Source: an uncultured Bacteroidota bacterium (GTDB taxonomy: Bacteria > Bacteroidota > Bacteroidia > Chitinophagales > Chitinophagaceae). Taken from it: a stretch of 64,000 nt of DNA. Shown piece after piece: positions 4,305-29,068 of this stretch. The stretch covers positions 1-64,000 of the forward strand of contig CAIVKC010000064.1 of NCBI GenBank assembly GCA_903906365.1. The letters run 5' to 3'. The first letter of the stretch is position 1. Each line of letters opens with the position of its first letter. A program made the translations under genes and the position numbers. The notes below the pieces were generated by a model. That model was not told the DNA's origin. It saw only the letters and a program-made list of their open reading frames with translations, and ran no database searches.

Positions 4305-6137
4305 ATGATAAAGCATCCCCGAATCTACTCATGCCTGCCTGCAGGTTATATTAAGGCCGCCTTCCTGATGGTTATGCTCTTTACTTTTTTTTGCCCCTGG
4401 CAGTCACGGGTTTATGGTAATGCCCGGGGGGACCAGCCTGAATATATCCTGTTTTCCAATCACCGGACCAGTTACTGCATCTGGCTGGGGGCGCAAGCCT
4501 CCCCTTCGGAGAAGTGGGCTGCCAAAGAACTGCATCACTGGCTTGAGCAGATCAGTGGGGCGGATTTTCCAATCCTACAGGCCGATCAGTCCGGAACCAC
4601 GGCAGCATCAGGCCCGCGAATAATTCTAGGTTACAATGAACTGGTCAAAGCAAAACTAAACATCCCCCTCCCTGCTCCCGCCGATGAATCCTTCCGCTAC
4701 CTGAGTGAGGGAGGCGATATCATGATTTTTGGCGGCAGGGAGCGTGGTACCCTCTATGGCGTGATGGCCTTCCTGGAAAATGAATTGGGTTGCCGCTGGT
4801 ACACCCCGGCTGTTTCGGTGATACCCCCAAGAGAGGAGCTCAGGTTCTCCCATTATGACCGGACTGAATCACCGGGCGTACGGGTACGAAATGACTTTTA
4901 TTTCGAGGCCTTTGATACGCTCTGGGCTGCCCGCAACCGGATGAACGGACGGATGGGTTATGTCAACCAGCCCGGCGGGGTGGAAGCCTACTGGGCCGTG
5001 CATACTTTTTATCCCCTGGTCCCCCCTGATGAATTCTTCGGCAAACACCCGGAATATTATAGTTTGGTAAACGGAAAAAGGACCCATGAATCGGCCCAGT
5101 TATGCCTGACCAACCCGCATGTGCTCTCCATCATAATAGACCGCATCAAAAAACGCATGCGGGAAAGCCCCGAATACCTGATCTATGACGTATCGCAGAA
5201 CGATAATTTCAACCCCTGTCAGTGCGATAAGTGCCAGCGGATTGTCCGTGAGGAGCAAAGCGAATCGGGGCTCATCATCTGGTTTGTCAACCAGGTGGCA
5301 GCGGCGGTGGAAAAGGAATTCCCGGATAAATACATCGGTACCCTGGCCTACCAGTATACCCGGACCCCGCCCAGGAACATCCGGCCCCGTGCCAATGTCG
5401 TGGTACGACTATGCCCGATTGAAGCCTGCGTGGCCCATGACCTGAAATCCTGCCCACAGAATCAATCCTTTATGCACGACCTGCTGGGCTGGTCCTCACT
5501 GGCCCCGCATTTATACATCTGGGACTATGTGGTCAATTTCAGCAATTATGTCATGCCCTACCCCAACATCCAGGTATTGCAGTCCAATATCCAGACCTTC
5601 CGGGACAACCATGCCATCGGTATTATGGAACAGGCTGCCTACCAGAGCCGGGGCGGGGAATTCGCTGAACTCAAATCTTATCTGATTTCCAAATTACTAT
5701 GGAACCCGGAAGCAAACACAGAAGACATCATCCGTGATTTTATGGACGGCTATTACGGCAGATCCGGCCGCTATATCCGGGCCTACCTGAACCTGCTGCA
5801 GGCCAGGATAACCCCGCAAACCCATATGCATATCGGCATAACTCCCCAGGACAGCCTGTTCACAGATGACCTGGTCACCAGCTCACTTAAATTGTTTGAA
5901 CAGGCAAAGACAGTGGCGGATAATGAAGATATATTCAAAAGGGTGGAAATGGCATCCCTTCCCATTCTATTTTTGCACTGCATGCGCAGTCCCGCCGCTG
6001 CCCGTAATGATGGCAGCTATCAAACCTTTTTGCGAGTGGCGAACAGGGAAAAAGTACTGTATTATAAAGAAGCCGATGCAAATGAAGTGGAAAGGGACCG
6101 CAGACAGTTTATGGAGCAAGTTGAAAAGGCAAATTGA
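4305..6137 (+). CDS. DUF4838 domain-containing secreted protein (glycosidase-like)
   Basis: About 610 residues. I chose the ATG at 4305 (MIKHPRIYSC) because it gives an N-terminal hydrophobic segment (AAFLMVMLFTFFCPW) suitable as a signal anchor or signal peptide; the frame opens at 4233. Residues about 40-170 resemble the N-terminal alpha/beta domain found before family GH67/GH20-like barrels (KWAAKELHHWLEQISG, then GRERGTLYGVMAFLE). The central part is typical DUF4838: VSQNDNFNPCQCDKCQ with a Cys cluster, then WFVNQVAAAVEKEFPDK and LAYQYTRTPP, the layout of a TIM-barrel glycosidase. Family members are commonly in polysaccharide loci, but no activity is established from this sequence. No partner gene is adjacent. 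Confidence 0.85.
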   Translation: MIKHPRIYSCLPAGYIKAAFLMVMLFTFFCPWQSRVYGNARGDQPEYILFSNHRTSYCIWLGAQASPSEKWAAKELHHWLEQISGADFPILQADQSGTTAASGPRIILGYNELVKAKLNIPLPAPADESFRYLSEGGDIMIFGGRERGTLYGVMAFLENELGCRWYTPAVSVIPPREELRFSHYDRTESPGVRVRNDFYFEAFDTLWAARNRMNGRMGYVNQPGGVEAYWAVHTFYPLVPPDEFFGKHPEYYSLVNGKRTHESAQLCLTNPHVLSIIIDRIKKRMRESPEYLIYDVSQNDNFNPCQCDKCQRIVREEQSESGLIIWFVNQVAAAVEKEFPDKYIGTLAYQYTRTPPRNIRPRANVVVRLCPIEACVAHDLKSCPQNQSFMHDLLGWSSLAPHLYIWDYVVNFSNYVMPYPNIQVLQSNIQTFRDNHAIGIMEQAAYQSRGGEFAELKSYLISKLLWNPEANTEDIIRDFMDGYYGRSGRYIRAYLNLLQARITPQTHMHIGITPQDSLFTDDLVTSSLKLFEQAKTVADNEDIFKRVEMASLPILFLHCMRSPAAARNDGSYQTFLRVANREKVLYYKEADANEVERDRRQFMEQVEKAN

Positions 6138-6452: not shown

Positions 6453-7088
6453 ATGAATTCCGCTTTGTCCCTTTCCCGCTCTCTACTATTGCTATTAATT
6501 TTATATACCCTGTTTTGCTTCTCATGTACCCAACAGGGTCCAGTAAAACTTACCCATGAAGACTCTTTATCCATCTATAACGAAATGGCAAAATTACAAA
6601 AACAGGACACTTTCTATTTCGGGTCACCAAGCACGCCGGAGGACCAAAAAAGTGTTTCCAAACGCCTGCAATTATTTTCCACCCCAATACCCCCAGATTC
6701 AGCTTGGACCTTGGTTAATAACTATAAGAATAGTCCAATAAAGGAGTTTAAGGTATTTAATCCTACCCAGCAAACAACCGTTAATCTGGTTGCCTTCGAA
6801 ATTGACAGCAAAATCAAAAATGTCTTAAGTGACCCCAATGTAAGCGGCTTAAGAGTGTACCTTGGAAAACGAGGGGAAGATGGCTTTTACACTTTGGTCT
6901 TTATACCCAAAGATACATCTGGTAATAATTATTTTTCTTCCACAAGCCCCACCACTACGACTGCTGTTTCCCCATTCGACTGGAATTTACCTTGTCCTTA
7001 CAATTGCCCTCCAGGAACTTCAGGGCAGGCTTTTGGAGACAATGGAACTCCCAAACCGAGTGGTGCTATAAGCGTCACAAAGCATTAA
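6453..7088 (+). CDS. lipoprotein, first gene of signalling cassette 1 (unknown family)
   Basis: A 211-residue protein with a lipoprotein signal: a hydrophobic stretch LLLLLILYTLFCFSC ending in the acylated Cys (residue 25), followed by TQQGP. The mature part has a core NVSGLRVYLGKRG then YTLVFIPKD, and ends with a Cys- and Pro-rich tail (PCPYNCPPGTSG). The same core arrangement (VTGLRVYFVRYP.. LSLAFVPVKD, and CPPKC tail) is found in the gene at 26452, which also precedes a multi-TM protein, a histidine kinase and a LuxR-type regulator. I do not recognise a named family. The position suggests a periplasm- or surface-exposed component of a signalling unit with the next three genes, which follow at 11, 17 and 18 bp. 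Confidence 0.75.
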   Translation: MNSALSLSRSLLLLLILYTLFCFSCTQQGPVKLTHEDSLSIYNEMAKLQKQDTFYFGSPSTPEDQKSVSKRLQLFSTPIPPDSAWTLVNNYKNSPIKEFKVFNPTQQTTVNLVAFEIDSKIKNVLSDPNVSGLRVYLGKRGEDGFYTLVFIPKDTSGNNYFSSTSPTTTTAVSPFDWNLPCPYNCPPGTSGQAFGDNGTPKPSGAISVTKH

Positions 7089-7099
7089 AAACCTGATTA

Positions 7100-7762
7100 A
7101 TGATTAAAAACATCATTTACGAACTGGTGTTGTTGGCTGGTTGCCTGAATGGAGGATTCAATTTCAAAAAATTGAGCCCTCCATTCAGGTTTTTACTATA
7201 CCTGCTTATTCTGACCTTCATAACCGAGACATTCGCTTATTATGCAGCCATTCGATGGCGGAATAATTTGCTGATTTACAATCTATATACCCCACTGCAT
7301 TTCATTATAGTAAGTTCGGCCTATTACCGGCTGATTAATCTTCCTTTTTTCAAAAGGGGCATTCGATGGCTTTGCGTTTTATTTGTCCTTTATTCAGCTT
7401 TCGTCATCTATGTAAATTTTCGTCACAATGAATTTCCATTTGTGCTCATAATAGCAGATAGTATTATCATAGTTATTTACTCAGTTACTCTTTTTTATCA
7501 AATGGTCCGAAACCCCGTTAAAAAGAGCCTGCTTGCGGATGCTGTCTTCTGGTTTAATGCCAGTATGTTGATTTTTTTTACAAGTAGTTTCATGTTTTGG
7601 ATTTCTTACCGGTACCTAGCAGTGCATCATCAGTCGCTTATACAAATTTTTTATACGTTTCTGTCTATTTTGAACATCTTAAATTACAGTCTCTTAGGAT
7701 TGTCTCTTTACTTGGAGGCCAGGCAAAATAATACTTTGGCTTCGACTATAAATGTTAACTAA
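7100..7762 (+). CDS. multi-TM membrane protein of signalling cassette 1
   Basis: A 220-residue integral membrane protein. About six or seven hydrophobic segments are visible: residues about 5-20, 30-48, 62-80, 88-106, 115-135, 150-172 and 182-205. The features shared with the 220-residue protein at 26925 are the same length, an ITETFAYY/LVETAANI segment after TM2, a following NNLLIYNLY/NHFLFNLSE stretch, and D-A/P-x-FW (LLADAVFWFNA versus RDPAFWISL). I do not recognise a named family. The adjacent kinase has only one TM helix and no sensor domain, so this protein is the natural candidate for the sensing or signal-transfer component. That role is inferred from context only. Confidence 0.75.
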   Translation: MIKNIIYELVLLAGCLNGGFNFKKLSPPFRFLLYLLILTFITETFAYYAAIRWRNNLLIYNLYTPLHFIIVSSAYYRLINLPFFKRGIRWLCVLFVLYSAFVIYVNFRHNEFPFVLIIADSIIIVIYSVTLFYQMVRNPVKKSLLADAVFWFNASMLIFFTSSFMFWISYRYLAVHHQSLIQIFYTFLSILNILNYSLLGLSLYLEARQNNTLASTINVN

Positions 7763-7779
7763 ACTGTAGCTGCTGAAAA

Positions 7780-8556
7780 ATGGACTCGGAATTAGCGATA
7801 ATATTATTTTCAGCGATTGCATTCTTTATTCTGTTAGGAGTTTCCCTCTTACTTTTTGTATTGTATTATCAAAAAAAACATTTTCAATTCATCTCCGAAA
7901 AAGATTCGTTAAAAACAACCTTTCAAAGAGAGTTGCTCAATACCCAGCTTGAAATCCAGGAACAGACCCTAAAATATATTTCGCAGGAAATCCACGATAA
8001 TATTGGACAAATATTAAGCCTTGCCAAACTCCATTTGGCTACCGCAAATATTGATAAGCCTGAATCACTGCAACAAAAAATAGAAGATTCAAAGCAACTT
8101 GTCGGAAAAGCCATACAGGATCTTAGGGATTTATCAAAGAGCCTAAATACCGACTATATTGCACAAGTGGGGTTTGCCCGTTCCATAGAATATGAACTGG
8201 AAATGATTAAAAAAACGGGGTCTTTTGACACTGAAATAAATATCGAAGGACCCATTCAAAAAATAGAGTCCCAAAGGGAATTAATTCTATTTCGTATTAT
8301 TCAGGAGATATTGAATAATATAATCAAACATTCGAAAGCCACTTTAATAACTACCAGGATCCAATATCTTCCTGCCGAAATAAATATTTCCATCAAGGAT
8401 AACGGCATGGGATTTAATGTAGAGGATTCCCTGAATACCCACGCAGGGCTTGGAATCAAAAATATGTATAACCGAACCTCCCTGATTGGTGGGAATTTCC
8501 AAATAAACAGCATAGTTGGTCTTGGAACAACCATTCAGATAAATTTGCCAATATAG
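7780..8556 (+). CDS. sensor histidine kinase (HisKA_3/LytS-NarX type) of cassette 1
   Basis: A 258-residue kinase with one N-terminal TM helix (residues about 5-30), a short coiled coil, then the phosphoacceptor region SQEIHDNIGQILSLAK with His72, typical of the HisKA_3 group paired with NarL-type regulators. The ATPase domain follows: N box EILNNIIKHSKA, G1 DNGMGF, G2 GLGIKNM. There is no periplasmic sensor domain and no PAS or GAF domain, so input must come through the TM helix or a partner, probably the multi-TM protein just upstream. The regulator gene begins 18 bp downstream. It is expected to autophosphorylate on His72 and pass the phosphoryl group to Asp57 of the next protein. Confidence 0.93.
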   Translation: MDSELAIILFSAIAFFILLGVSLLLFVLYYQKKHFQFISEKDSLKTTFQRELLNTQLEIQEQTLKYISQEIHDNIGQILSLAKLHLATANIDKPESLQQKIEDSKQLVGKAIQDLRDLSKSLNTDYIAQVGFARSIEYELEMIKKTGSFDTEINIEGPIQKIESQRELILFRIIQEILNNIIKHSKATLITTRIQYLPAEINISIKDNGMGFNVEDSLNTHAGLGIKNMYNRTSLIGGNFQINSIVGLGTTIQINLPI

Positions 8557-8574
8557 TTTTTAAAAAATTATAAT

Positions 8575-9231
8575 ATGCTAAAAATAAATGTAGCGCTCGC
8601 AGATGATCATATTTTGCTTCGAAATGGACTAGCCAGCCTAATCAATAGCCTCGATAATTACAACGTTATTTTTGAGGCAAATCATGGAAAAGACTTTATT
8701 GAAAAACTTAAAGATCGTATCATTCCCGATATTGTATTAATGGATATCAATATGCCGGAGATGGATGGATATGAAACGACCAATTGGCTTAAACAAAATC
8801 ATCCTGAAGTAAAGGTGTTAGCCCTATCTATGTATGACAATGAACCATCCATTATAAAAATGCTTAAATGTGGCGCAAAAGGGTATGTATTAAAAGATAT
8901 TGAGCCGGCAGAATTTAAGACAGCGCTCGATTCCCTTGTCAACAAAGGGTTCTATTATTCAGACCTGGTTACGGGAAAATTAATTCATGCTGTAAACAAC
9001 AGTGATTCTACGGAACGAAACACATTAAATGGTGTTTCATTGTCTGACAGGGAAATTGAATTCCTGAAATACGCATGCTCTGAAATGACCTACAAAGAAA
9101 TTGCCGAAAAAATGTTTTTAAGCCCCCGGACCATAGATGGGTACCGCGATGAACTCTTTGAAAAATTACAGGTAAAATCCCGGGTAGGTCTTGTCATGTA
9201 CTCCATTAAAAACCGGCTTGTACATATTTAA
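8575..9231 (+). CDS. NarL/FixJ-family response regulator of cassette 1
   Basis: A 218-residue two-domain DNA-binding regulator. The receiver domain (residues about 3-125) has the acidic pair D10-D11, phosphoacceptor D57 (VLMDINMPEMDG), the conserved Thr/Ser position in LALSMYDN, and Lys in GYVLKD. The C-terminal LuxR-type HTH (about 150-215) reads LSDREIEFLKYACSEMTYKEIAEKMFLSPRTIDGYRD when taken in its parts, with the usual recognition helix. It is the output of the adjacent kinase. Its targets are unknown; autoregulation of the cassette is plausible but nothing in the sequence shows it. Last gene of the cassette; no clear terminator follows. Confidence 0.95.
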   Translation: MLKINVALADDHILLRNGLASLINSLDNYNVIFEANHGKDFIEKLKDRIIPDIVLMDINMPEMDGYETTNWLKQNHPEVKVLALSMYDNEPSIIKMLKCGAKGYVLKDIEPAEFKTALDSLVNKGFYYSDLVTGKLIHAVNNSDSTERNTLNGVSLSDREIEFLKYACSEMTYKEIAEKMFLSPRTIDGYRDELFEKLQVKSRVGLVMYSIKNRLVHI

Positions 9232-9477: not shown

Positions 9478-10164
9478 TCAGGGTGTCCTTTCCAACATCC
9501 TGATTCCCTCCTCTCCCAACAGGATGAGTTTTGTTGCCATCCCATAAAACAGGGATGTTTCAAGAACGCCCGTAATCTTTTTGAGTTCAGGATTGATGCC
9601 GCTGAGCTCAGGCCAGTCGGCTAATCCCATCTCCACCAGCAGATTACCCCGCTCGGTCCTGGCAGGCCCTGAACCATTGGTTTGCTGCCTGATCCCTAAC
9701 AGGGATGCCGGATAGATTTCCCGGATCTTTCTGGTAACAAAGGCAGCTGCATCGGGGATGACTTCAAGGACCACCGGAAACTTCCCGTCAAAATGATCCA
9801 CATATTTGGCCTCTGTACCCATCAATATGAACTGGTCTGCCATCGAAGCAAAGAGCTTTTCGCGGGTATGGATACCCCCTCCGCTTTTCAGGGCATTCAA
9901 TTCCGAATCCACCTGGTCGCAGCCGTCTACATAGAGATGTAAATGGTCTGCTTTACCAATGTCTCCCAACTCAAAGCCCCCGGAAACCAACCACTCCCTG
10001 GTTGTGGCAGAAGAGGTAAAAAAAGTCAGCCCTTCTATCTCCCTTAGTTCGGGTCCTGCGGATTCCAGCAATTTGCGCACCGTGCTGCCATCTCCCCATC
10101 CCACCCGCTGACCTTCCCCGATCTGGGAGAGTATGTATTTTCCTGCTTCTGCTATGGAATCCAT
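9478..10164 (-). CDS. rpiA: ribose-5-phosphate isomerase A
   Basis: A 228-residue cytoplasmic enzyme interconverting ribose 5-phosphate and ribulose 5-phosphate in the non-oxidative pentose phosphate pathway. Family motifs are visible: GWGDGSTVRKLLE near the N-terminus (phosphate-binding loop), FFTSSATTREWL, HLYVDGCDQVDSELNALK (family DGADE motif, here DGCDQ), SGGGIHTREKLFAS with the catalytic-region Gly-rich loop and Lys, and the C-terminal GVLETSLFYGMATKLILLG. Length is normal. The DGADE variant DGCDQ replaces the usual Glu by Gln, which is worth noting because these residues line the active site. The gene is on the minus strand 317 bp beyond the ThuA gene and may be transcribed separately. 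Confidence 0.92.
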   Translation of the reverse strand: MDSIAEAGKYILSQIGEGQRVGWGDGSTVRKLLESAGPELREIEGLTFFTSSATTREWLVSGGFELGDIGKADHLHLYVDGCDQVDSELNALKSGGGIHTREKLFASMADQFILMGTEAKYVDHFDGKFPVVLEVIPDAAAFVTRKIREIYPASLLGIRQQTNGSGPARTERGNLLVEMGLADWPELSGINPELKKITGVLETSLFYGMATKLILLGEEGIRMLERTP

Positions 10165-10481
10165 GGTATGTATCAGGGGGTTTATGGCCTTTCCTTTATT
10201 GCTATCCGTTCCTAAATGCCAGCCCTGTCCCTAAATATAATGGGTTTAAAGCCGGCAGGATTCAAACCTTGATCATTTTTTTGGCTCCGTATCCATAGCC
10301 CCGTGGCTTTCCGCCTCCTTATAAAGCGCGCACCGGCCTGCTTTTCATATACACTGGATTTCCGGGGGTTCCCCTGCTGAAAAAATGCTTTCCGGGCGAG
10401 CCGCCGCATATACCCGCTCCAATCTCCCGCAAGTCCTCTCTGATGCCATGTTGCAGTGATTTACCTGCCTTGACAAATGGT
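10165..10481. other. intergenic region between thuA-like gene and rpiA
   Basis: I see no gene or clear signal here. Short open frames are present on both strands but show no family features. It probably holds the rpiA promoter on the minus strand. Confidence 0.4.
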
Positions 10482-11246
10482 TTATTTTTTCCCGGTAGCA
10501 GCCCAAAATATGCCCGCATAGAGATGGTCCAGGAAAGCCTGGTCGCTGAAATCGGTTGGCATATGGCCAAGGTTGGTATAAAAGGAGCGGCCGCCGTCGT
10601 AGGTATGATACCAGGCGATTGGATGCAGCTTGCCCATACCGACGCCCTTTCTCTGACCCCAGTCGGCTTTTGGATTATAGGAATTCTCATCCACTGCCAG
10701 GATATAATTCAGCCCGGTGGTCTTTTCCGGACCAAATTCATACCATTCATCCGTCCAGAGCCGGGGCGGGGCAAAACCGGTCAGCCCGGGAAAGCTGGGA
10801 TCCAGGATATTGAGTTTGGCGGTCTGGATCTGGGGATGGATATGGAACATCCGGCCCACCAGTTTGGTATACCATTCCCAGTCATACTCGGTATCCGAAG
10901 CGCTGTGGATACCGACAAAGCCTTTTCCTGCCTGGATAAAGCGCTCCATGACCTGTTGCTGGGCTGAATCAAAAATATCGCCTGTCGTATTGAGGAAAAT
11001 CACCAATTGAAACCCTTCCAGGTTTTTATCGGTAAAACTATTGGGATCCTTGAAAAGTTTTACTTCAAAATAATGTTTATTGGCCAGTTCCTGGATTGCC
11101 AGTACGCCTGCATGCTGGGATTCATGGTGGAAGCCACGGGTCGTGGTTACCAGCAGGGCCCTGAACTGTTTTTGCTGGGCAGGCGCATTCAGGGAAATGA
11201 GCAGGATGAGCACAACCAGGAGTGCGCGGGAGCGGAAGGTATGCAT
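10482..11246 (-). CDS. ThuA-like domain secreted protein
   Basis: A 254-residue protein with a signal peptide (RALLVVLILLISLNAPAQ). The mature part is a class I glutamine amidotransferase-like (ThuA) fold: FRALLVTTTRGFHHES at the first strand, LVIFLNTTGDIFD, then GKGFVGIHSASDTEYDWEWYTKLVG, WTDEWYEF, and HPIAWYHTYDGGRSFYTNLGH. ThuA was named from trehalose utilisation in rhizobia, and secreted ThuA proteins in Bacteroidota are usually annotated in sugar-metabolism contexts, but the reaction is unsettled. It lies between a thioredoxin-type gene (53 bp upstream) and rpiA, all on the minus strand, so the first two at least are likely co-transcribed. Confidence 0.9.
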   Translation of the reverse strand: MHTFRSRALLVVLILLISLNAPAQQKQFRALLVTTTRGFHHESQHAGVLAIQELANKHYFEVKLFKDPNSFTDKNLEGFQLVIFLNTTGDIFDSAQQQVMERFIQAGKGFVGIHSASDTEYDWEWYTKLVGRMFHIHPQIQTAKLNILDPSFPGLTGFAPPRLWTDEWYEFGPEKTTGLNYILAVDENSYNPKADWGQRKGVGMGKLHPIAWYHTYDGGRSFYTNLGHMPTDFSDQAFLDHLYAGIFWAATGKK

Positions 11247-11299
11247 GAGGGCTGATTTGAATGAGCAATGGGTGGAATCAATAAAACAAATTAGTACGG

Positions 11300-12439
11300 T
11301 TAATAATACCTGCCAATCAGCGGATGATCCACAATGGTTTTTTTCAGCTCGGCCGGATCGATCTGCCCCTGTTTGGCAAAGACGACCCTGCCTCCGGGCT
11401 CGACCAGCAGCGTATAGGGCAGGGCCCCCTGCCAGTTGGGATCAATCGTTTCGATCAACTTATATTTATTGTCATCATTGAACAAATAATTTTTAACCGA
11501 GGCCTGCTGGGTCTTCAGAAAGGCGAGTGCCTTTTGCATTTTAGCCGGGTCATCCGCGCTGATGGAGATGAATTCAAAATCCCTGCGGCGGTACATCCGG
11601 TTGATGGTGATAAAATCCTTGAATTCACCCACACAGGGTCCGCACCAGGTAGCCCATACATTGATCAGCCGCAGTTTATCGGAATGGTTGGCCAGCAGCT
11701 CCTTTAGTCCTTCGCTCCCAATGGTGTCCAGGGTGACCGGTTCTGCGGCCCATTCCTGCCGGGCTTTGGAAATCCAATCGCTTTTCTCCGTCCATTTCAC
11801 CGAACAGCCAAAAACCTTGGTGGTGGGGATCTCTACCGGCCGGCCGGCCAGCAGGGCCTCCAGGGCCTCCCGAGTCGTATTATTACCGGGCGTTTTGGTA
11901 GGCTTTTCGGTGTCATCGATCCTTCCGCTGTAGCGCAGCCTGCGCTGCTGGTCAAAGATGAATACATGGGGCGTCGCCACCGGACCATATTTGCGGGATA
12001 CCTCCTCTGTCTTTCCGTCATAGAGGTAAGGAAAATTAAAATGCTTGATGGCGGCTCTCTGTTTCATTTCCTCAAAACTGTCCCCCATATCGGTGTAACC
12101 CAGCTCATCCAGCCTGATGGACAGCGGATCATTGGGCATGATGGCCACCACCGCTACGCCTTTGGAGCGGTAATCACTGCTCAGCCGGATCAGCCGGTCC
12201 TCATAGGCCTGTGCGGTAGGGCAGTGATTGCAGGTGAATACCACGACCAGCAAGGTTGCATTTTTAAAGGAAGCCAGCGAATAGGTTTTTCCATCGGTGG
12301 CTGGCAGGCTGAAATCCGGCGCCGGGGACCCGATGGAAAGGGTGGGGTGCTCCCCGCTTCTTGTGGCAGAAGCGGCCGGAGCGGACTGAGCTGCTGTCGA
12401 CAGGAAAAAAACCAGCCCAGGGAAGACCTGTTTGATCAT
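11300..12439 (-). CDS. secreted protein with tandem redoxin and TlpA-type thioredoxin domains
   Basis: About 379 residues from the ATG at 12439, chosen because it gives a signal peptide (MIKQVFPGLVFFLSTAAQSAPA); an ATG at 12454 is an alternative and the frame extends to 12625. Domain 1 (about 33-185) is AhpC/TSA-like redoxin: SIGSPAPDFSLPATDGKTY, then FTCNHCPTAQAYEDRL with C70-C73. Domain 2 (about 235-375) is TlpA-like: LINVWATWCGPCVGEFKDF with C266-C269, and LPYTLLVEPGG with the cis-Pro. Two redox-active CXXC motifs in one polypeptide imply disulfide exchange in the periplasm, perhaps relayed between domains. The ThuA-like gene follows by 53 bp. Confidence 0.9.
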   Translation of the reverse strand: MIKQVFPGLVFFLSTAAQSAPAASATRSGEHPTLSIGSPAPDFSLPATDGKTYSLASFKNATLLVVVFTCNHCPTAQAYEDRLIRLSSDYRSKGVAVVAIMPNDPLSIRLDELGYTDMGDSFEEMKQRAAIKHFNFPYLYDGKTEEVSRKYGPVATPHVFIFDQQRRLRYSGRIDDTEKPTKTPGNNTTREALEALLAGRPVEIPTTKVFGCSVKWTEKSDWISKARQEWAAEPVTLDTIGSEGLKELLANHSDKLRLINVWATWCGPCVGEFKDFITINRMYRRRDFEFISISADDPAKMQKALAFLKTQQASVKNYLFNDDNKYKLIETIDPNWQGALPYTLLVEPGGRVVFAKQGQIDPAELKKTIVDHPLIGRYY

Positions 12440-13058
12440 GGTAGCAGTGAACATGGCGGCAATATTTTCTAAAAGGTACAACCAATTATTAAATGATGGC
12501 TTCGTTGCCGATGGATAAATCCGCAAGGGGTCAAAAGTGGTCAAAAGTGATGAGGTAAAATACTTATTTACCACCGGGCGGAGGGATGAAGTAAAAATGG
12601 AAGGAGTGAGATCTAAGAAAATCATGTAACCAAATCAAAAATATCACTCATACTATGTGGCTGGGGCTCCTGAGTAACCTCAGGCTATTGGCCAGGCATT
12701 TAAATGCCGGATATTTCCGTCCACCCTCCATTACTGGAATTTACAATACCTAATCAAGCCCCCTGCCAATAGCGTTATACCTAACCTCTATTTACAGAAA
12801 GGCCATATGATTGGCAGAGGCTGGATATTAATCACAGCCGGATCTGCCCTACCGGATACGGGCAAATCATTATTTATGAAATACCCCCTTCGGGGTATTG
12901 TACAGCCAGAATTATTGCGCCAATTTTAAGGGACTTTCATCTATGCAAAGGGTATCATGATTAACCTGGAATGATCCTGCCGGATCCGTCCAGTCTGAAT
13001 ATATACCCAGGCAGATGATGAAGATTCCTTTTTTTAAAAACCAGTAAAACCTGAAACT
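12440..13058. other. 620-bp intergenic region rich in inverted repeats
   Basis: No gene is evident. It contains a 6-bp hairpin CCTGAG-TAAC-CTCAGG (12669-12684), a perfect 14-bp palindrome GGCATTTAAATGCC (12695-12708) and the 18-bp palindrome listed at 12881. It separates divergent genes. Confidence 0.5.
12881..12898. promoter_or_regulatory. palindrome ATACCCC-N4-GGGGTAT, copy 1
   Basis: Perfect 7-bp arms with spacer CTTC. Identical arms recur at 14008 and 18165, each in a non-coding gap. The spacing and perfect symmetry suit a dimeric regulator's operator. This copy lies 160 bp before the beta-barrel gene at 13059. Confidence 0.5.
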
Positions 13059-26451: not shown

Positions 26452-26862
26452 ATGTTTAAACCCATCCCGGTTGCAACGCTCTCCGCCTGGAGGGCTTTAT
26501 ACACCCAAAACACAGATCTCCCGACGGTGAGCGAATCTGCAGGCATCAGCCTGGAGCTGCTGAAAAATTTCATCGCCGCTGCTGAAAAGGACTGCCCCGG
26601 AGTAACCGGTCTGCGGGTGTATTTTGTCCGTTATCCGCTGGAAAATGACCTTTCTTACCTTCAAAAGGTCGGAAATAAGCCGGTTTCCCAGCTTTCCCTC
26701 GCCTTTGTGCCCGTAAAAGACAATAACCCGGGCAGTTTTGGCGGGGTAGATTTTCCCATGCCCGATGATCCCTCCCAAATTCTCACGCTGGCAGTATGCG
26801 CACCGGAGGGCCCCCAATGGGATGAATCCACCGGCCTGTGTCCTCCCAAATGCGTCTGGTAG
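26452..26862 (+). CDS. first gene of signalling cassette 2 (unknown family)
   Basis: 136 residues from the ATG at 26452; the frame opens at 26374 with a poor N-terminus, so I prefer MFKPIPVATLSAWRAL. No signal peptide or lipobox is evident, unlike its counterpart at 6453. The shared core is GISLELLKNFIAAAEKD, then VTGLRVYFVRYPLEN and SQLSLAFVPVKDN, matching the VAFEIDSKIKNVL, VSGLRVYLGKRG and YTLVFIPKD of the first cassette. The C-terminus STGLCPPKCVW mirrors the CPYNCPPG tail. I recognise no named family. The gene heads an operon-like run with a multi-TM protein, kinase and regulator at 62 bp, then overlapping, then 12 bp. Confidence 0.7.
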   Translation: MFKPIPVATLSAWRALYTQNTDLPTVSESAGISLELLKNFIAAAEKDCPGVTGLRVYFVRYPLENDLSYLQKVGNKPVSQLSLAFVPVKDNNPGSFGGVDFPMPDDPSQILTLAVCAPEGPQWDESTGLCPPKCVW

Positions 26863-26924
26863 GAGGCGTAAGGGATCGCCAAAATTTATCAGCCATTGCC
26901 GGCTTTGTTTTTTAATTTGAGGGA

Positions 26925-27587
26925 ATGATTATGCTGCATTTCATTGGAGTTTATTTCACCCTGATTTTTGTCTGGATGGCCTGCCTCGCTGCAGGGACTG
27001 TGGCAGGAAAACCAGTTCCTGCCCATTACCGCAGCCTTGCCTGGCTCATCCTGTTGCTGGGCCTGGTGGAGACCGCAGCCAATATCCTTGCCTTCAATAA
27101 CATAAAGAACCATTTCCTGTTTAACCTCTCTGAATCCGTCCGCTTTTTGGGGGTGGCCCGCTTTTTCTATGTCGTGCTGGCCAATTCGGCCCTTAAAAAA
27201 ATTGCCCTTGGCTTCCTGTTCCTCTTCCCGGTATTTGTGCTGGCCAATATGGTGCTGGTCCAGGGCTTTTTTACCCTGAACACCGCCAGTTATGTCCTGG
27301 GAGGCAGTTTTGTTCTGCTGCTGTCAGTGGCCTATATCTGGCAGTTATATATCAGCGACGAGACCAGGAGCATTTTCCGCGATCCTGCCTTTTGGATCAG
27401 CCTGGCTTACCTGCTGTTCCTGGCAGTTTCGGTTCCCTATATCGGGATGCTTAACTACCTGTGGAACAAATACCCTTCCTTTACCAGTCATTATTACGAT
27501 TATATTTTTCAAACGGCCTTAATCATCCATAATATTTTATTAACCGCAGGATTCCTATGTATGAGACCCTCTTTGAAGCAAAACTGA
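26925..27587 (+). CDS. multi-TM membrane protein of signalling cassette 2
   Basis: 220 residues, the same length as the counterpart at 7100. About seven hydrophobic segments are seen, at roughly 6-26, 37-55, 68-86, 90-112, 118-140, 153-175 and 190-212. Shared positions include the LLGLVETAANILAF segment (counterpart LTFITETFAYYAA), the NNIKNHFLFNLSE stretch (counterpart WRNNLLIYNLY), and RDPAFWISLAY (counterpart ADAVFWFNASM). The weak but co-linear similarity suggests a common family I cannot name. Its 3' end overlaps the kinase start by 31 nt, pointing to translational coupling and a shared role in sensing. Confidence 0.75.
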   Translation: MIMLHFIGVYFTLIFVWMACLAAGTVAGKPVPAHYRSLAWLILLLGLVETAANILAFNNIKNHFLFNLSESVRFLGVARFFYVVLANSALKKIALGFLFLFPVFVLANMVLVQGFFTLNTASYVLGGSFVLLLSVAYIWQLYISDETRSIFRDPAFWISLAYLLFLAVSVPYIGMLNYLWNKYPSFTSHYYDYIFQTALIIHNILLTAGFLCMRPSLKQN

Positions 27588-28396
27588 TCCTGGTGGTCTG
27601 TACGGCGCTGATCCTGCTGCTGATTTCAGTGATCATTGCCGCACTGCTCATCGAACAGAAACGAAAGTTCACCCACCGCCAGGAACTCACCGACCTGCAA
27701 AACCAGTATGACAAGACCCTCCTGCAGGCCGAGCTCAAAATCCAGGAGGAAACCTTTAAAGCCATCTCACGCAACCTCCATGATAACATCGGCTCCAATA
27801 TCTCCACGGCGATGCTGCTGCTCTATAAGGATGATGCCATGGCCGCCGGTGAAATGGAATCCAACCGGCAGGACGCCCTGCACCTGCTCGACAGGGTGGT
27901 CGATGACCTTAAGGAGATCGCCCGCAGCCTGAACCCGGACTATCTTTCCGAAATTGGCTTGGGTGAAGCCATCCGGCAAACGGCTTCCAAACTGGAAAAT
28001 TCCAGGAGATTCCGCGTAGTCCTTCAAATCGGTGAACCCCCTCATCCGCTGGACCAGAAAAAAATGCTGATCCTGTTTTACATATTCCAGGAAGCGGTCA
28101 ATAATATCATCACCCATGCCGGGGCGCAAACCATCGAGATCCGGCTGGATTACCAGCCAGCCGTCCTGTTGCTCAACATCTCCGATGATGGCAGGGGAAT
28201 ACCCCCGACGCAGGCCCCGGGCAGAAAAAAGGGCTCCGGGCTGATCAATATAAACAAACATGCCCGGCTGATTGGTGCAAGGCTGGATATCCAAAGCCGG
28301 CCCGGGCTGGGCACAACCATCCTGGTAACGGTACCGGACCCTTATGGCGGGGAAAAATCCCCGCCCACAGATACAAAATCATGGTCTGAATTATAA
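27557..28396 (+). CDS. sensor histidine kinase (HisKA_3 type) of cassette 2
   Basis: 279 residues. One N-terminal TM helix (about 9-32) is followed by a coiled-coil and AISRNLHDNIGSNISTAMLL with phosphoacceptor His75. The ATPase domain has the N box FQEAVNNIITHAGA, G1 DDGRGIP, and G2 GSGLININKHA. There is no periplasmic loop or PAS domain. It starts inside the preceding gene (31-nt overlap) and the regulator follows after 12 bp. It is the counterpart of the kinase at 7780 and again lacks its own input domain, supporting signal input through the multi-TM protein. Confidence 0.93.
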   Translation: MYETLFEAKLILVVCTALILLLISVIIAALLIEQKRKFTHRQELTDLQNQYDKTLLQAELKIQEETFKAISRNLHDNIGSNISTAMLLLYKDDAMAAGEMESNRQDALHLLDRVVDDLKEIARSLNPDYLSEIGLGEAIRQTASKLENSRRFRVVLQIGEPPHPLDQKKMLILFYIFQEAVNNIITHAGAQTIEIRLDYQPAVLLLNISDDGRGIPPTQAPGRKKGSGLININKHARLIGARLDIQSRPGLGTTILVTVPDPYGGEKSPPTDTKSWSEL

Positions 28397-28408
28397 AATG
28401 AATGACTT

Positions 28409-29068
28409 ATGGTAAGACTCGCCATCATAGAAGATAACGTCGAATACCGCAGTACCCTTTGCCGCCTGCTGCAGCGTGACCCCGCCGTGGAGATGCTCCA
28501 TGAACTGGGCAGCTGCGTAGGTATGGTGGCCCTTTTCCAGGAGGCCCTGCCCGATGTGGTCATCATGGATATTGACCTGCCCCTGGTCAACGGCATTGAA
28601 GGGGTCTGGGAACTCAAGCAAAAATGGCCGGATATCAAAATACTCATGCTCACCGTATTTGAGGAGGCCGATAAGATCTTCGGGGCCATCAAAGCCGGAG
28701 CCAACGGGTACCTGCTCAAAAAAGACCCGCCCAATAAGATCCTGGAAGCCGTCTTCAACCTGGTGGGCGGGGAGTCCATCATGAACGGCATCATCGCAGC
28801 CAAGGTCATGGAATATTTCAAAAGACAGGCTGCGGATGCGCCCCGCATGGATAGCTACCACATCACCGATAAGGAAAAAGACATCCTGGGCAAACTGGTT
28901 CAGGGACTGGGCTATAAACAAATCGCATCAGACTGCTCCATTACCCGGGAAACCCTCAATACCCACATGAAAAATATTTACCGCAAACTCAATGTCCATT
29001 CCCGGGCGGAGGTCTCCGCCCGGTTCGGGGAACACTTCAAAAAGGACTTCGGACCAGGGTTTTTCTAG
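28409..29068 (+). CDS. NarL/FixJ-family response regulator of cassette 2
   Basis: 219 residues. The receiver (about 3-125) has the acidic residues E8-D9, phosphoacceptor D54 (VVIMDIDLPLVNG), Thr in MLTVFEEADKIF, and Lys in GYLLKKDPP. The LuxR-type HTH (about 150-215) includes ITDKEKDILGKLVQG, YKQIASDCSITRETLNTHMK and VHSRAEVSARF. It is the output partner of the kinase at 27557. Targets are unknown. No terminator directly follows; one is found 420 bp downstream. Confidence 0.95.
   Translation: MVRLAIIEDNVEYRSTLCRLLQRDPAVEMLHELGSCVGMVALFQEALPDVVIMDIDLPLVNGIEGVWELKQKWPDIKILMLTVFEEADKIFGAIKAGANGYLLKKDPPNKILEAVFNLVGGESIMNGIIAAKVMEYFKRQAADAPRMDSYHITDKEKDILGKLVQGLGYKQIASDCSITRETLNTHMKNIYRKLNVHSRAEVSARFGEHFKKDFGPGFF

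Follow-up and report, generated by a model that had tools for sequence, protein, structure and literature searches.

Two copies of a four-gene cassette in the genome of an uncultured Bacteroidota bacterium (Chitinophagaceae) probably encode a two-component system with a split receptor, in which a small partner protein (SP) and a seven-transmembrane (7TM) protein (labelled TM, for membrane protein) together serve a histidine kinase (HK) with a single membrane helix and a NarL-type response regulator (RR). The cassettes lie at positions 6453-9231 (copy 1) and 26452-29068 (copy 2) of a 64,000-nucleotide stretch, hereafter the window (GCA_903906365.1, contig CAIVKC010000064.1, positions 1-64,000, forward strand), and two further cassettes are present on contigs C22 and C50 of the same genome. 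They apparently represent a large and undescribed family of signalling systems of an already known kind, namely two-component systems with accessory proteins. The statement in the initial annotation that no described system has this arrangement was too strong, since SaePQRS (PMC5083920) and LiaFSR (PMC3543457) are similar in outline. In the libraries and literature searched, the SP and 7TM families, the predicted fold of the latter, which resembles G-protein-coupled receptors (GPCRs), and the apparent switching of SP between locations seem to be new; the same holds for a 7TM protein that stands alone and is the likely receptor of a kinase lacking an input domain.

The four genes of copy 1 lie on a single strand, separated by 11 bp (SP1-TM1), 17 bp (TM1-HK1) and 18 bp (HK1-RR1), and the same order recurs in copy 2, where TM2 and HK2 overlap by 31 bp. 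We counted this arrangement in two sets of loci: set A, 80 loci kept from a scan of named genomes including Niastella, Terrimonas, Puia, Hydrotalea, Chitinophaga and Agriterribacter (78 clusters found), and set B, loci fetched by a TM match (120 TM clusters). In set B an HK is the next or next-but-one gene after TM in 110 of the 120 clusters, an SP precedes TM in 99 (85 by profile and 14 by tail motif), an RR follows closely in 90, and all are present in 78; the SP figure is lowered by 20 loci that were chosen as having TM without an SP profile match. The corresponding counts for set A are 74/78 for HK, 72/78 for SP, 71/78 for RR and 66/78 for complete cassettes. The gene after TM overlaps it in 90 of the 110 set-B clusters with HK, a count based on the longest-open reading frame (ORF) starts that may be overstated. 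Five further loci (L179, L187, L237, L238 and L246), in which the TM ORF was masked by a kinase ORF of excessive length, stand outside these counts. TM is followed by HK in all five. The SP profile identified an SP in L237, and its match in L238 overlaps the TM ORF. SP-like ORFs whose tail reads CPQ or CPP precede TM in L179 and L187, and in L246 this place is taken by an anchored ORF of 183 aa that was not called as SP. No RR was seen in L187. From the side of SP, 69 of the 75 SP matches in 78 related genomes are followed on their strand by a TM match at a distance below 800 bp, two of the 75 rows (genome G022, contig C112) being parts of one gene. An SP profile match stands in front of 68 of the 150 TM matches listed, with 29/30 among the best 30 and 3/30 among the last 30; where such a match is missing, many TM genes are preceded by another ORF that looks like a divergent SP, having a leader and a tail of the CPP type. 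Variants include two or three TM genes in tandem (L031, L071, L078, L083, L266) and an RR placed ahead of SP (L020, L024). Neighbourhood co-occurrence is very strong, and of the two outcomes that the initial annotation named as refuting its proposal, rare co-occurrence of the genes and placement of the small proteins in unrelated known families, neither was seen. The cassette genes also diverge in step: in a set of 100 drawn from 137 complete cassettes, with 20 sampled from the named set and duplicates removed, the tree-distance correlations r were 0.73 for SP-TM, 0.76 for TM-HK and 0.81 for HK-RR, and 0.65, 0.65 and 0.56 for SP-HK, TM-RR and SP-RR respectively, against a largest permuted value of 0.18. 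The four cassette genes are inherited together.

Profiles built without the window rows recovered both copies, TM1 at 8.3e-42, TM2 at 3.2e-33, SP1 at 3.6e-18 and, weakly, SP2 at 7.6e-5; with a second SP profile SP2 scored 0.0084 and SP1 was missed. The relationship between the two copies exceeds chance at the sequence level. It is least secure for SP2, where the position before a TM gene, the GLRVY strand and the LCPPKC tail compensate; the shared GLRVY core and Cys/Pro tail (CPYNC in SP1) and the equal length of the two membrane proteins, 220 aa each, were correctly picked out in the initial annotation. As to distribution, with the own genome counted in every sample that lists it, a search with TM1 alone gave matches in 47 of 118 genomes, and profile searches of 78 relatives found TM in 48/78 and SP in 41/78, with up to 11 TM matches in one genome. 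In a sample of 295 genomes from the class Bacteroidia TM is present in at least 80, and in at least 51 of 156 genera, these being lower bounds as at most ten candidates were scored per genome. SP was found in 33 of 296 genomes sampled from the phylum, three of these outside the class.

The AlphaFold2 model of TM2 contains seven long helices with a mean predicted local distance difference test (pLDDT) score of 93.6 and a predicted template modelling (pTM) score of 0.89. Its best fold matches in the PDB (Foldseek) are GPCRs, which occupy rows 1-36, followed by one zinc transporter at row 37. Lysine plus arginine counts per sequence are 2.5-3.4 in loops 1, 3 and the C-tail and 0.7-1.3 in loops 2, 4 and 6, and the family is predicted to place its N-terminus outside and its C-terminus inside. 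Known families did not account for these proteins: 1) a PDB-sequence profile search for GPCR homology returned one match only, Hen1, at an E-value of 2.4; 2) no Pfam GPCR model is among the hmmscan matches of 34 TM members; 3) no family in Pfam or NCBIfam is matched by more than one of these 34 at E 0.05; 4) HisKA_7TM (PF16927) has no hmmscan match in the 34 members and none in the own genome. The resemblance to GPCRs concerns the predicted fold only; as regards coupling to a heterotrimeric G protein, the gene beside TM encodes a histidine kinase. Conservation was analyzed over 133 TM members, with columns numbered by TM2 positions. Among the strongest columns, P154 (P in 74), F156 (F in 116) and W157 (W in 117) lie at the inner end of helix 6. 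Others are polar and lie in the outer half or middle, namely E49 (E in 91, D in 18), N62 (N in 92), N67 (N in 65, H in 34) and E73 (E in 75), and helix 7 contributes N199 and Y/N203; at three of these columns TM2 itself has R73, L199 and N203. This pattern suggests an outward-facing polar pocket together with an inner coupling site.

SP likewise found no convincing family in Pfam or NCBIfam, so that the profile placement of both the small and the membrane proteins led to no known family. The SP2 model is weak (pLDDT 62.8), with one long helix and few strands, and the fold search with it gave no useful match. SP has a core domain and, behind it, a short tail rich in proline and cysteine that is its hallmark: C[PI]x1-3C occurs in 121 of 178 different SPs and in 11 of 964 control ORFs, and [ND]xGx[LI]xPP in 44/178 and 0/964, some of the control ORFs being unverified. 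With the 80 named loci set aside, the two motifs are seen in 63/113 and 12/113 SPs. In some SP groups the tail cysteines are absent and the prolines are kept.

The small protein had been taken for a lipoprotein, which holds for SP1, where a hydrophobic stretch ends in FCFSC and reads by eye as a lipoprotein leader with Cys25 (the lipobox pattern did not match), and fails for SP2, which has no leader from either possible start, as well as for many relatives. By a hydropathy rule, with one row (L088) relabelled by hand, 43 of 172 different SP-TM pairs have a lipoprotein, secreted or anchored leader. On a quick tree of 133 sequences the leader state changes at least 17 times (shuffled mean 36.5, with 0 of 500 shuffles as low), and five changes are forced by well-supported branches. 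SP leaders, as called from sequence, have hence been gained or lost repeatedly among relatives. In one close group the leadered L159 and L167 align over their full length with the leaderless L158, L160, L161, L162 and L165, bar the leader and small gaps, and all five leaderless members have in-frame stops upstream. A single protein unites the two partners: the 516-aa fusion at L255 comprises a signal peptide (read from sequence), an SP domain, a CPPHC tail and a 7TM region, which would place the SP domain outside, directly ahead of helix 1. With a profile built without L255, the SP part of the fusion scored 3.5e-8, a 298-aa ORF at the same locus 1.7e-7 and the first non-SP ORF 0.0055. This 298-aa ORF is SP-like and leaderless and stands directly before the fusion (L255:549-3012), such that both forms of SP occur in one operon. 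The fusion supports SP and 7TM working together.

In the output half of the cassette, HK1 matches HisKA_3 at 8.2e-10 and HATPase_c at 2.8e-11 in Pfam, and HK2 matches HATPase_c at 5.2e-13, with HisKA_3 at 0.069 below the cut-off; RR1 and RR2 both have Response_reg and GerE above the cut-off, in keeping with the NarL-type regulator first recognized. Judged by these domains, HK and RR constitute a two-component system of a HisKA_3 kinase with a NarL-type regulator. No input domain was matched in HK1 or HK2 in Pfam and NCBIfam scans, and each kinase has one N-terminal hydrophobic stretch. Matches of the kinases to LiaS and UhpB models, among others, and of the regulator to the UhpA model are all below cut-off. 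In L231 and L232, from genomes outside the class, a PAS-like insert is read between the membrane helix and the core of the kinase.

It is likely that these parts form a two-component system whose receptor is divided between SP and 7TM. SP would regulate the 7TM protein as its dedicated partner, situated outside in some cassettes (as a lipoprotein, secreted, anchored or fused) and leaderless in others. The 7TM protein, with its N-terminus outside and C-terminus inside, would replace the missing input domain and act on the one-helix kinase, which in turn would phosphorylate the NarL-type regulator. A signal would accordingly run from SP or a ligand through 7TM to the kinase and the regulator. 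The Pro-x-Phe-Trp conserved at the inner end of helix 6 would provide the coupling to the kinase, and SP and 7TM would be the sensing parts. That the two may form the receptor had been proposed at the outset; the SP-7TM fusion and the failure to match a kinase input domain speak for it, and the receptor role itself we infer.

Several observations weigh against this reading. In many cassettes SP is leaderless, copy 2 and the majority of the 80 named loci included, which is a poor fit to a purely extracytoplasmic co-receptor. The fusion is a single locus, and none of the fetched ORFs matches both the TM and HK profiles. Acidic residues are as many as basic ones in loop 5, where the topology signal is weak. 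In set B 10 of the 120 clusters have no HK behind TM (three at a contig end, and three of the rest being additional TM genes that follow an RR), and no SP was recognized ahead of TM in 21 (one at a contig end). At L047 (genome G002, contig C12) two to three tandem TM ORFs occur with no SP, HK or RR profile match in the 8 kb fetched; these are perhaps orphan receptors. Finally, the gene order is the same as the proposed signal path, so that co-divergence alone is no proof of contacts and could be explained by linked inheritance.

SP and 7TM might instead be accessory brakes or amplifiers of a membrane kinase that senses by itself, as SaePQ are for SaeS and LiaF for LiaRS, which we regard as unlikely. 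Such a role would accord with SaeP, SaeQ, SaeS and SaeR making up the same kind of cassette and a SaePQS ternary complex being formed (PMC5083920), with LiaF being a negative regulator of LiaRS (PMC3543457), and with the sub-threshold LiaS and UhpB matches; however, the cassette kinase with its one hydrophobic helix has almost no outside part with which to sense, and polar residues are kept inside the membrane in 7TM, which we take to favour a receptor. There is also only a slim chance that 7TM functions in transport or as a channel while also sensing, with SP as its binding protein. UhpC is a transporter-type membrane protein with a sensing role, and here too a separate membrane protein stands ahead of a kinase and regulator matching the UhpB and UhpA models below cut-off, but the protein has about 220 aa and seven helices, the family members have no transporter family in common in Pfam or NCBIfam, and the lone zinc transporter in the Foldseek list comes behind 36 rows of GPCRs. 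Slimmer still is the chance that SP is a signalling pro-protein whose C-terminal tail, after release or export, is detected by 7TM and the kinase in an Agr-like cell-cell system: the tail motifs are conserved at the frequencies given above and many SPs are leaderless, yet SPs that are lipoproteins, anchored or fused to 7TM would be unable to diffuse, no gene in the cassette is an obvious candidate for processing, and the tail cysteines are missing in some SP groups.

Several characterized systems bear comparison with the cassette. SaeS and SaeR belong to other kinase and regulator classes than the cassette HK and RR. In Staphylococcus aureus SaePQRS likewise comprises four genes, for the lipoprotein SaeP, the membrane protein SaeQ with four predicted helices, the kinase SaeS and the regulator SaeR, and SaePQ form a complex with SaeS and activate its phosphatase activity (PMC5083920). 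In contrast to SaeQ, as described there, the cassette TM has seven predicted helices, and the Sae order P-Q-R-S differs from that of the cassette, where the kinase precedes the regulator (PMC5083920). A further difference is that the cassette SP is often leaderless, as in SP2. SaePQRS-like identity was ruled out by the seven predicted helices, the leaderless SP2 and the kinase-before-regulator order. LiaFSR and VraTSR combine a HisKA_3 kinase and a NarL-type regulator, and LiaF has few helices plus a C-terminal domain; we know of no SP-type gene in these systems. They share with the cassette an accessory membrane protein alongside kinase and regulator, and differ in that the LiaF architecture is not seen in TM. 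LiaFSR identity was rejected, as hmmscan of the 34 TM members against Pfam and NCBIfam at E 0.05 returned no LiaF-named model and no family common to more than one member. In the accounts of these systems, LiaF is the accessory membrane protein of LiaRS (PMC3543457) and enterococci have LiaX as an additional protein (PMC10269926).

Among seven-helix receptors, those of the 7TMR-DISM type combine an outside domain, 7TM and a signalling output in one polypeptide, whereas 7TM protein and kinase are separate proteins in the cassette. PF07695 (7TMR-DISM) is present in 21 of 29 genomes, the own genome among them; it was rejected as an identity for TM, with no hmmscan match and hhalign probabilities of 0.3-3.2% against 11 rows (within-family control 99.9%). 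BtsS and LytS resemble the cassette in the seven helices and outside N-terminus predicted for its 7TM protein and in a kinase output, and differ in uniting receptor and kinase in one protein; their 5TMR-LYT model (PF07694) was likewise rejected, with no hmmscan match and an hhalign probability of 0.5% against 8 regions (within-family control 99.9%), and it has no match in the own genome. BtsS, a 7TM kinase with its N-terminus outside, uses periplasmic-side residues from three helices to bind pyruvate (PMC10653868). Another accessory lipoprotein that acts on a histidine kinase is found in the QseG-QseE pair. QseE has its own sensor part. QseG binds and activates QseE directly via its C-terminal domain, and the abstract of that account mentions no 7TM subunit (PMC12691602). 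As SaePQ, QseG and LiaF bind or switch their kinases, the proposed way of working has precedent, and SP and TM fall outside those families by the features tested.

Further observations concern the surroundings of the cassettes (coordinates in Table 1). Copy 1 is flanked (window 4311-6134 and 9481-12625) by genes for a DUF4838 protein, ribose-5-phosphate isomerase A, ThuA and a redoxin/thioredoxin. A fifth, divergent TM-family gene of the own genome is located behind the RR of the C50 cassette (C50:24490-25080), and an extra TM gene in this position is seen again in L048, L055, L056, L243, L245 and L254. The paralog typified by the C22 cassette (L003, many of L057-L128, named Chitinophagaceae) lies near purH-, comEC- and carB-like genes in 46, 42 and 41 clustered loci respectively (names read from sequence); this inherited core-gene neighbourhood suggests a conserved role. 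In eight loci (L018, L032, L127, L131, L133, L136, L257, L260) a gene named from its sequence as lipid A acyltransferase-like lies near the cassette, a possible link to envelope lipids.

Table 1. Genes of the two cassettes in the window; His, Asp and Cys residues, leaders and tails are as read from sequence
Gene	Position	Strand	Features
SP1	6453..7088	+	211 aa; lipoprotein-like leader (Cys25); GLRVY core; CPYNC tail, C181/C185
TM1	7100..7762	+	220 aa; 7TM family; N-out/C-in as family-level predicted topology
HK1	7780..8556	+	one N-terminal hydrophobic helix; HisKA_3 + HATPase_c; His72 in EIHDNIGQ
RR1	8575..9231	+	NarL-type; Asp57; GerE helix-turn-helix
SP2	26452..26862	+	136 aa; leaderless; GLRVY core; LCPPKC tail, C130/C134
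TM2	26925..27587	+	220 aa; 7TM; AlphaFold2 model, seven long helices, mean pLDDT 93.6, pTM 0.89
HK2	27557..28396	+	one N-terminal hydrophobic helix; His75 in NLHDNIGS; HATPase_c
RR2	28409..29068	+	NarL-type; Asp54; GerE helix-turn-helix

A bolder version of the proposal, which we put forward only tentatively and with considerable doubt, is that GPCR-shaped receptors standing alone form a large family in Bacteroidota and signal to a separate kinase through the inner end of helix 6, each with its own SP as a ligand or co-receptor that docks by its Pro/Cys tail and can be placed on either side of the membrane. If this were true, a seven-helix receptor with a separate effector would be a design present in bacteria as it is in animals. 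The 7TM protein is in any case a candidate bacterial seven-helix receptor with a predicted fold resembling GPCRs, and its family occurs in about a quarter of the sampled Bacteroidia genomes, as a lower bound, yet has no family model in the libraries searched. The natural split between receptor and kinase would make each part swappable and testable, and close relatives that differ in whether this SP domain carries a lipoprotein leader amount to a natural experiment on where an accessory signalling protein acts. The cassettes may thereby offer a route to what Bacteroidia sense.

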